This document shows, piece after piece, positions 15,003-40,088 of a stretch of 40,088 nt of DNA. Within the stretch, counting starts at the first letter, position 1; the number at the start of each line of letters is the position of its first letter. The notes below the pieces were generated by a model, which saw only the letters and a list, made by a program, of their open reading frames with translations, was not told the DNA's origin and searched no databases. Source of the stretch: Alphaproteobacteria bacterium (GTDB lineage: Bacteria; Pseudomonadota; Alphaproteobacteria; Micavibrionales; Micavibrionaceae); assembly GCA_027482195.1 (NCBI GenBank), contig JAIXWE010000075.1, positions 1 to 40,088 of the forward strand. Direction: 5' to 3'. A program made the translations under genes and the position numbers.

Positions 15003-15572
15003 ATGAAGTCAAAGAAAATGACGAATCTATTTGAGAAATCAGGAAAAAATCACTCCAAGCCTTTATGCCTTATTGGCATGATGGGAGTTGGGAAAACAAC
15101 AATCGGACGTTCTCTGGCTGCGCATTTTTCCTGTGATTTTTTTGATTCTGATCAAGAAATAATCCGCACCACCGGCCAAAGTATCAGCGAAATTTTCGCA
15201 CAACACGGCGAAGAAAAATTTCGTACATATGAATATGAAACTTTTCAAAAATTGAGCGGGCATGATTTTTGTGTCATCGCAAGCGGGGGCGGTGCGGTGA
15301 CTCATCCTCAAACTGCCGAGCTTCTTTTTCAGCACACACTGCCCATATGGCTTCAAGCTAGCCCCGCAACGCTTTTAACTCGTATCGGGAATGTGTCCAC
15401 ACGTCCATTGCTTAAGGATGCAGATAATCCGGCTGCTGTTTTGAAAAAGAAATTGGCGGAGAGAGAGCCGCTTTATCAACAAGCCCCGCTTCATATCCAG
15501 ACCGATAACAAATCTGTTACCGAGATTGTTGCGGATATTTCCACAGAACTTGATCAATATCTGTTAAAATAA
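15003..15572 (+). CDS. aroK: Shikimate kinase
   Basis: Phosphorylates shikimate at the 3-OH, fifth step of the chorismate pathway. The P-loop is GMMGVGKTT (about 25-33), followed by the shikimate-binding DSD (about 48-50), FRTYEYE with the conserved Arg, ASGGGAVTHP (Gly-rich shikimate loop) and the lid Arg in STRPLL. All catalytic elements are in place. The start is uncertain: GTG 15000, ATG 15003 and ATG 15018 are all in frame and none has a strong ribosome site, so about 20 N-terminal residues may be non-core. The next gene, aroB, begins 5 bases after the stop; aroK-aroB-corC is a conserved alphaproteobacterial operon. Confidence 0.94.
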   Translation: MKSKKMTNLFEKSGKNHSKPLCLIGMMGVGKTTIGRSLAAHFSCDFFDSDQEIIRTTGQSISEIFAQHGEEKFRTYEYETFQKLSGHDFCVIASGGGAVTHPQTAELLFQHTLPIWLQASPATLLTRIGNVSTRPLLKDADNPAAVLKKKLAEREPLYQQAPLHIQTDNKSVTEIVADISTELDQYLLK

Positions 15573-37779: not shown

Positions 37780-38844
37780 ATGTCTGATCTTCTTAAAAAA
37801 TTAAAACCGGTTGAAGCACGGTACGAAGAAATTTCCGCGTTACTTTCTGCGGGAAATATTTCGGGTGATGCGTATGTCAAGATGACCAAAGAATTTTCAG
37901 ATCTGGAACCCGTGGTCGCGACCATTCGTGCCTATGAAACCGCTTTGAAAGATATGAAGGGTGCGGAAGAGCTTGCATCCGACCCCGATATGAAGGAAAT
38001 GGCGTTTGAGGAAATTCAGCGTTTAAAAAGCATCATTCCAGATTTAGAACATGAGATTCGTTTAGCTCTTATTCCCAAAGATTCCGACGATTCCAAAAAT
38101 GCGATTTTAGAAATTCGCGCCGGCACAGGGGGCGATGAAGCGGCGTTATTTGCCGGCGATTTATTGGGCATGTATCGCGGCTATGCCGCCGCCAAGGGCT
38201 GGCGGTTTGACGTGGTGGAGGCAGCCGAGTCCGATTTAGGCGGGTTTAAAGAAGTGATTGTTGAGGTTTCCGGATCCGATGTGTTTTCACGTCTTAAATT
38301 TGAGTCAGGCGTGCACCGTGTGCAACGCGTTCCCGACACCGAAGCTTCGGGGCGTGTGCATACTTCGGCCGCCACAGTCGCCGTGTTACCAGAAGCGGAA
38401 GATGTTGATATGGAGATCAATGAAACCGATTTGCGCATTGATGTCTATCGCGCAGGTGGCGCGGGCGGTCAGCACGTTAACAAAACGGAATCGGCGGTGC
38501 GCATCACCCACATTCCCACCGGTGTTGTTGTCGCCATTCAAGATGAAAAATCGCAACATAAAAACAAGATCAAGGCGATGAAGATTTTGAAATCGCGTCT
38601 TTATGATGCGCAACGCCAAAAATTATATTCGGAGCGTGCGGCGGATCGCAAAGCACAAGTGGGGTCGGGGGATCGCTCGGAACGGATCCGCACTTACAAT
38701 TACCCGCAATCACGGGTGACGGATCATCGCATTAACCTGACCCTTTATAAAATTGATGACATCATGGCCGGCGCAGGGTTAGAGGAGATTATTAACGCGC
38801 TCACCACCGAGGATCAGGCCGAAAAACTGGCCAGTTTGGAGTAA
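37780..38844 (+). CDS. prfA: Peptide chain release factor 1
   Basis: Recognises UAA and UAG stops and triggers peptide release. 354 residues. The GGQ motif is at 229-231 ([13 protein letters not shown]), and the RF1 stop-codon tripeptide is PDT at 185-187 ([17 protein letters not shown]), fitting the P-x-T of RF1 rather than the SPF of RF2. The window uses TAA, TAG and TGA stops. Relatives normally have prmC next; here a P-loop gene lies between. Confidence 0.97.
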
Positions 38845-38922
38845 GGCTGATTTTTCTTGACATAGTTCGGATTTCGGGTGCATGAAGGCAGTCACATTCC
38901 AATTTTTTAAGGAGACTGCGTG

Positions 38923-39822
38923 ATGGTTATGCCAATTATAATCGGCCTGCCCGGGGTAGGGAAATCAGAAGTCAACAGGGCTTTAGCCGAGCGCCTCAAT
39001 TGCAAAATTATCTCAACTGAAAATGAGTTTCGTACGTTGCGCGCAATTGGCGCAAATGACGATCACCCCGAAGCCGTGGTCATCAATCTTTTTCTCAAGA
39101 AAGTTTATGAAGATTTCGTTGTTAAGGGCAAAATGACACCTTACAAATTTGCAAGGCTCATGCGCGCTTGTGAGATCGATAAAAACGATTTGACGCAAAA
39201 AAACAGCTTTCACACTGACAAGGTTTTATATTCCTTCGGCATGGATGTTTTCCGCACCTTTGAAGCCGTTGTAAATAAATGGCTTTATGATGAAGGGCAT
39301 TTTGCAGGAAAATTGCCGGATGTTTCTGCTTTTGCGTTGGCAAACCCCGATACACGCAGAATTTTCTCTGCTCAGAATGATTTTGTGCCGGTTCTTTTGA
39401 ATGCGGATCATGAAAGGATTGTCAATAATTTGATGACTGGGTTTGATCAATATGTAGAGCTTAGCCTTGATGCAAAACAATCTGTCCCTGTGCGTGATGA
39501 TTATGATCAAATCGGACTTAAGGCGTTGTATGAGGCTGTTGAGCATGTTGATGAAACAGAAAGTGATTTATATTATGCCGCAATGTGTGCGGGTGCAACG
39601 CGTGAATATTCTTTGATGGCGGCGTGGACAGAAGCGAATAGCCAAGCGCGTGATGTTGTGCGTTCGGCATTTTCTTATCACGCTATGCAACACCGCATGC
39701 AATGTTTGCCTTCCTTGCGCGCGGCGGCAAAAATGACAATTGATATGAACGATGAATCGGGCGGTCAGGCGGCAGTCACACGTGCGGTTGATCGCATTGT
39801 CCGAGAATTAAATCTTGGATAA
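38923..39822 (+). CDS. Divergent P-loop (shikimate-kinase-fold) protein, unrecognised
   Basis: 299 residues from ATG 38923, supported by TAAGGAG at 38908-38914; in-frame GTG 38920 is an alternative. A Walker A motif, GLPGVGKS (8-15), opens the protein, right after a short strand as in shikimate kinases. SAFALANPDTRRIFSAQNDF then VPVLLNADHERIVNNL (about 139-175) aligns by eye with the Gly-rich loop, strand and helix of AroK (GGGAVTHPQTAELLF, IWLQASPATLLTRI), but GGG is lost and the shikimate-binding Asp pair after the P-loop is STENE. Residues 205-299 are charged and helical with no recognised motif. Placed between prfA and prmC, overlapping prmC if that starts at TTG 39815. A nucleotide-binding role is inferred only from the P-loop; the substrate is unknown. 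A separate complete aroK exists at 15 kb. Confidence 0.75.
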   Translation: MVMPIIIGLPGVGKSEVNRALAERLNCKIISTENEFRTLRAIGANDDHPEAVVINLFLKKVYEDFVVKGKMTPYKFARLMRACEIDKNDLTQKNSFHTDKVLYSFGMDVFRTFEAVVNKWLYDEGHFAGKLPDVSAFALANPDTRRIFSAQNDFVPVLLNADHERIVNNLMTGFDQYVELSLDAKQSVPVRDDYDQIGLKALYEAVEHVDETESDLYYAAMCAGATREYSLMAAWTEANSQARDVVRSAFSYHAMQHRMQCLPSLRAAAKMTIDMNDESGGQAAVTRAVDRIVRELNLG

Positions 39823-39826
39823 TCAT

Positions 39827-40088
39827 GTGGCGCGCGCGGATTTAAAAGAAAAACTGCGCGCCGCTGGTGTTGAAAATCCGGATTTAGAATTGCGCATTCT
39901 TTTGCGTGATCTGGGTGATTTTGACGACACCGCGATTCTTTTGGGGTGCATACCCGACCCGTTGCCAGCCGTAATTTTAAGTGCGATTGATCAGCGTCTC
40001 ACGGGGAAACCTTTGAGCCGTATTTTAGGCTATCGTGAATTTTATGGCCGCCGATTTTATTTAAATGACGCAACGCTTGATCCGCGCG
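39827..40088 (+). CDS. prmC: N-terminal part of PrmC (HemK), release factor methyltransferase
   Basis: The frame is open to the window end. Visible residues are a helical N-terminal domain: VARADLKEKLRAAGVENPDL then LELRILLRDLG, and at the end QRLTGKPLSRILGYREFYGR followed by RFYLNDATLDPR, the PrmC signature just before the methyltransferase domain. PrmC methylates the Gln of the GGQ motif in release factors, in keeping with prfA nearby. GTG 39827 is chosen as start; TTG 39815 in the same frame is possible and would overlap the P-loop gene by 8 bases. The SAM-binding domain lies beyond the window. Confidence 0.9.
   Translation, partial: MARADLKEKLRAAGVENPDLELRILLRDLGDFDDTAILLGCIPDPLPAVILSAIDQRLTGKPLSRILGYREFYGRRFYLNDATLDPR

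Follow-up and report, generated by a model that had tools for sequence, protein, structure and literature searches.

What might a P-loop protein be doing between prfA and prmC? In the window, by which we mean the whole 40,088-nucleotide stretch of DNA analysed here, an open reading frame (ORF) separates these two genes, and an earlier sequence-only reading had proposed for it a repurposed shikimate kinase (SK) fold, serving as a small-molecule or RNA kinase or as a regulator tied to translation termination. From its fold, motifs and distribution, which we computed, and from a catalytic activity and acceptor class that we infer, we consider it reasonably probable that the product is an SK-family phosphotransferase that uses ATP and has a rebuilt acceptor pocket, and that this enzyme is accessory, sporadically inherited and placed between prfA and prmC by chance.

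The gene and its surroundings

The ORF (38923–39822, forward strand) encodes an SK-like P-loop kinase of 299 amino acids plus a stop, with no internal stop codons. A Shine-Dalgarno-like AGGAG (38910–38914, forward strand) lies 8 bp upstream of the ATG at 38923, and translation could alternatively start at an in-frame GTG at 38920. Upstream, prfA (37780–38844, forward strand), which we judge to be functionally unlinked to the kinase gene, ends 78 bp before it. Downstream, the 5' part of prmC (39815–40088, forward strand) begins either at a TTG at 39815, overlapping the kinase gene by 8 bp, or at a GTG at 39827, and runs off the end of the contig. The GC content of the kinase gene (44%, GC3 41%) is slightly below the window mean of 47% and inside the spread shown by the other genes of the window. 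With its full frame, its AGGAG and the full-size homologues described below, this is a real gene, as had been claimed, though a rare one.

The genome bin comprises 125 contigs totalling 1.8 Mb. On a second one of these, C32, the final 124 bp of the kinase gene lead into a complete prmC. Between the two versions there is a single difference in the kinase-gene stretch, at position 39762, and there are 16 over roughly the first 270 bp of prmC. Because both contigs join the end of the kinase gene to prmC, the junction is no assembly slip, and at least two strain variants are present in the bin. When positions 39699–40088 of the window are compared with L003, the uneven divergence (16 differences in the start of prmC, one in the preceding 124 bp) could mark either a recombination breakpoint or a mixture of strains. 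An intact, canonical aroK is found in the same window (15081–15545, forward strand; SKI 150.3 bits), in keeping with the earlier claim that the genome has a full copy elsewhere.

Relationship to the shikimate kinase fold

Pfam recognized only the P-loop of the window protein (AAA_33, 26.6 bits), with the SKI model (PF01202) at 14.4 bits falling under its cutoff of 22.1, which the three distant homologues that we identified all pass (41.1, 39.9 and 37.0 bits), their best SKI-matching stretch lying outside the P-loop. A profile of the family could be aligned, in register, with the AroK encoded in the window itself (E = 1.4e-6), and when the P-loop was removed from both sides the family profile matched an AroK profile built from six SKs with an E-value of 1.4e-4 and a score of 34, against a maximum of 16.9 among 30 column-shuffled control profiles. 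Stripped of its P-loop, the window protein alone was marginal against the AroK profile (E = 0.029) and matched its own homologues at 5e-19.

The same relationship was apparent in structure searches. For the Bacteroidales member, the model is of good quality along its whole length (pLDDT 86.6), and its top 28 entries were all shikimate kinases (Z 17.2–13.7), led by 3vaa, to which 169 of 176 residues aligned at 2.4 A (Z 17.2); the best other natural kinase reached Z 12.8 and 2vli, a tunicamycin-resistance protein, Z 11.4. The window protein gave a weaker model, good only to about residue 160 and poor at 160–280, which still ranks SKs first (2iyr, Z 12.3). The family thus has the SK fold and is a distant relative of AroK, and the proposed fold with an intact P-loop is confirmed. 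An AroK-like stretch had been placed by eye at residues 139–175; the likeness is real and beyond chance, but it was offset, as the equivalent of the Gly loop lies at 133–139, the next strand at 154–158 and the next helix from 163.

Related P-loop folds, 2vli among them, include kinases that inactivate an antibiotic or act on a nucleotide or cell-wall precursor, such as those resembling chloramphenicol phosphotransferase, TmrB or zeta toxins, and a sporadic, apparently mobile distribution would suit a role of this kind. We nevertheless regard it as quite improbable, given that SKs match far better than 2vli does (17.2 versus 11.4) and that neither the window protein nor its homologues match the zeta toxin or chloramphenicol phosphotransferase models of Pfam.

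Active site and probable acceptor

The Walker A motif GLPGVGKS occupies residues 8–15 (38944–38967, forward strand), exactly where the sequence-only reading had put it. Lys14 is invariant in the four family members, and the Walker A Lys and Ser/Thr are kept in all homologues, including the Bacteroidales one, whose motif reads GLPATCKT with Cys replacing the second Gly. The DxD of SKs interacts with Mg2+; alignment with six SKs places STE (S31-T32-E33; 39013–39021, forward strand) at this site in the window protein, and STD, DTN and STD in the homologues. Beyond it come a family-specific motif, F36-R37-x-x-R40-x-I42 (39028–39048, forward strand), which is invariant in the four members and absent from AroK, and a helical insert of ~40–50 residues at 43–98, after strand 2. 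The motif G-x-D-x-F-R-x-F-E (residues 106–114; 39238–39264, forward strand) aligns with the GE..FR..E of AroK, so that Arg111 corresponds to Arg58 and Glu114 to Glu61 of MtSK, and F110 R111 x x E114 is invariant across the family. In place of the GGG shikimate loop, the alignment shows D-V-S-A-F-A-L (residues 133–139; 39319–39339, forward strand), the GGG site itself reading SAFA (S135-A136-F137) in the window protein and SGSA, SGSA and SASA in the homologues. The LID motif RPLL is absent from the family, which has instead P189-V-R191-x-x-Y194 (39487–39504, forward strand), with P, R and Y invariant, as a candidate LID arginine motif. All three homologues align an Arg with the distal Arg136; in the window protein, next to an insertion, the Arg falls one residue away. 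In MtSK, the carboxylate of shikimate makes contacts with Arg58 and Arg136, and the ATP gamma-phosphate with the LID residue Arg117 (PMC3646032).

Compared with AroK/AroL, therefore, the family shares a whole-length fold, Walker A, the GE..FR..E region and, in the homologues, the C-terminal Arg, but differs in its replaced DxD and GGG, its PxRxxY for RPLL, its added FRxxR and strand-2 insert, and its length (239–299 versus ~175 amino acids). The best score against the NCBIfam SK equivalog models was 18.4 bits, compared with a cutoff of 186. As neither GGG nor DxD is retained and the genome has another, intact aroK, phosphorylation of shikimate is unlikely, in agreement with the earlier prediction.

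We propose that the Walker A loop would bind ATP, as it does in AroK, and that the enzyme probably phosphorylates a small molecule other than shikimate on a hydroxyl. The acceptor is probably a small hydroxy-carboxylic acid, which Arg111 would hold, joined in the homologues by the C-terminal arginine; the sole basis for a carboxylated compound is the retention of these SK-type arginines. The F-R-x-x-R motif, the 43–98 insert, the D-[LV]-S-x-x-A-L loop in place of GGG and the longer LID and C-terminal region would together set the non-shikimate specificity. Of the two substrate classes suggested earlier, a small molecule is thus favoured over RNA, the kept arginine pointing to a small acid.

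As a counterpoint, with DxD changed to STE, catalysis could be weak or lost. The loss of DxD and GGG from the window protein would also fit an SK relative that has lost catalysis, or is not a kinase, and serves as a ligand sensor or regulator, as may be compared with plant SKL1 and SKL2, SK paralogues that have lost shikimate-binding and other key residues and have no SK activity (PMC2593004). These are plastid proteins with extra domains, however, and SKL1 lacks the proximal Arg that the kinase family keeps. We think such a role rather unlikely, as the Walker A Lys and Ser/Thr, the Arg58 and Glu61 equivalents and a probable LID Arg are conserved across two phyla, and as a Pfam scan of the window protein found no DNA-binding or other domain.

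A precedent for a changed substrate in an active enzyme is the Desulfovibrio homoserine kinase DvMF_0971 (NF040667), an SK relative in a genome that keeps its true SK (PMC5764234). Its model, hom_kin_desulfo, is among the weak matches of our family, raising the idea that the gene supplies a missing metabolic kinase of this type. The match is mostly to the P-loop, though, and amounts to 16–24 bits (16.4 for the window protein) against a cutoff of 197. A full-length ThrB-type homologue is already encoded in the same genome (242 bits, just below the cutoff of 255.9), and a ThrB-type protein exceeds that cutoff in G122, one of the genomes with a homologue. With both AroK and a ThrB-type homoserine kinase present, the kinase gene fills no obvious gap in the pathways checked, and we rejected a missing homoserine kinase as very unlikely indeed.

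For the favoured reading, an SK-family phosphotransferase with a rebuilt pocket, the four sequences and one confident model define an SK-like subfamily that Pfam and NCBIfam miss in the window protein and would label merely as shikimate kinase in the homologues. They counsel caution in annotating such genes as aroK, and offer a test case for substrate change in the SK fold. More tentatively, the family may represent a new, horizontally moving SK-fold subfamily with a substrate new to the fold and a rebuilt Mg2+ site in which STE or STD takes the place of DxD.

Another non-canonical SKI protein occurs in the same family of organisms, in G001 (L028:1474–2154, reverse strand). Its GGG is also replaced, by TGS (DLTGSAI), but at 226 amino acids it lacks FRxxR, matches the kinase family with an hhalign E-value of 7.8e-7, and by eye forms a separate subfamily. 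Its gene adjoins one for a HAD-type phosphatase-like protein, and it scores 52 bits against the Desulfovibrio homoserine kinase model.

Distribution and genomic position

A scan of 142 genomes of the order recovered two full-size homologues in Alphaproteobacteria of the same family, G122 (37% identity, E = 8e-32) and G112 (30%, E = 6e-22). A profile scan of genome_contigs found these again, in public bins, and added the Bacteroidales homologue; the genes flanking it in its bin resemble, by eye, those of Bacteroidota. No further convincing members turned up in 385 genomes of the class, 299 genomes of the phylum or 197 relatives of the Bacteroidales bin, and scanning genome_contigs, viral_contigs, phages and plasmids with a single sequence returned no homologues. 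Within the order, then, 3 of 142 genomes carry the gene, each at a site unrelated to the others; with one Bacteroidales copy in addition, it is probably an accessory gene that has spread horizontally. Transfer between phyla is suggested by the 39–42% identity of the Bacteroidales protein to the G122 and G112 homologues, which exceeds that of the window protein to any member.

Several other candidates were set aside. The viral match L031 is, by eye, another kind of P-loop kinase, one ending in an HD-like tail; weak matches in G018, G226, G007, G808 and G959 come from cytidylate-kinase-like proteins or adenylate kinases with the P-loop alone in common; phmmer matches to RhoA (E = 0.04 and up) are due to chance; and PADLOC matches barely extend beyond the P-loop. 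Among relatives of the Bacteroidales bin, L033:901–2070 and L035:1375–2547 encode proteins of 389–390 amino acids with two tandem adenylate-kinase-like domains.

The members share no conserved neighbour. One homologue is flanked on its two sides by GTP cyclohydrolase II and UPRTase genes, one by a helix-turn-helix (HTH) gene and a nitrilase-type gene, and one lies after a 439-amino-acid ORF whose function is not assigned. That HTH gene is present in 78 of 135 genomes, and is therefore not a partner or dedicated antitoxin; with the HTH gene widespread in genomes that have no copy of the kinase, a toxin-antitoxin kinase was rejected and the zeta-toxin comparison loses further ground.

A kinase or regulator coupled to translation termination, acting on a release factor or PrmC, would account for a gene lying between prfA and prmC, and for the C32 variant joining the same gene end to prmC. 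None of the three homologues is near either gene, however. The sequence-only reading had seen the interruption of a very conserved pair, and the gene does lie between the two, but this clade does not strictly preserve their adjacency. Among 29 relatives, the two genes adjoin each other in 16, with a gap of no more than 114 bp; they lie 416–807 bp apart in six, with other sequence between them (an acetyltransferase-like ORF, an HTH-like ORF and others), and are broken apart in seven, where prmC is not within 1.5 kb of prfA. The proposed tie to termination is thus not supported, and we consider it highly improbable; with homologues elsewhere and a variable junction, the placement of the kinase gene looks accidental. 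Across L037–L065, the prfA-prmC junction in the order behaves as a variable site that often holds unrelated extra genes.
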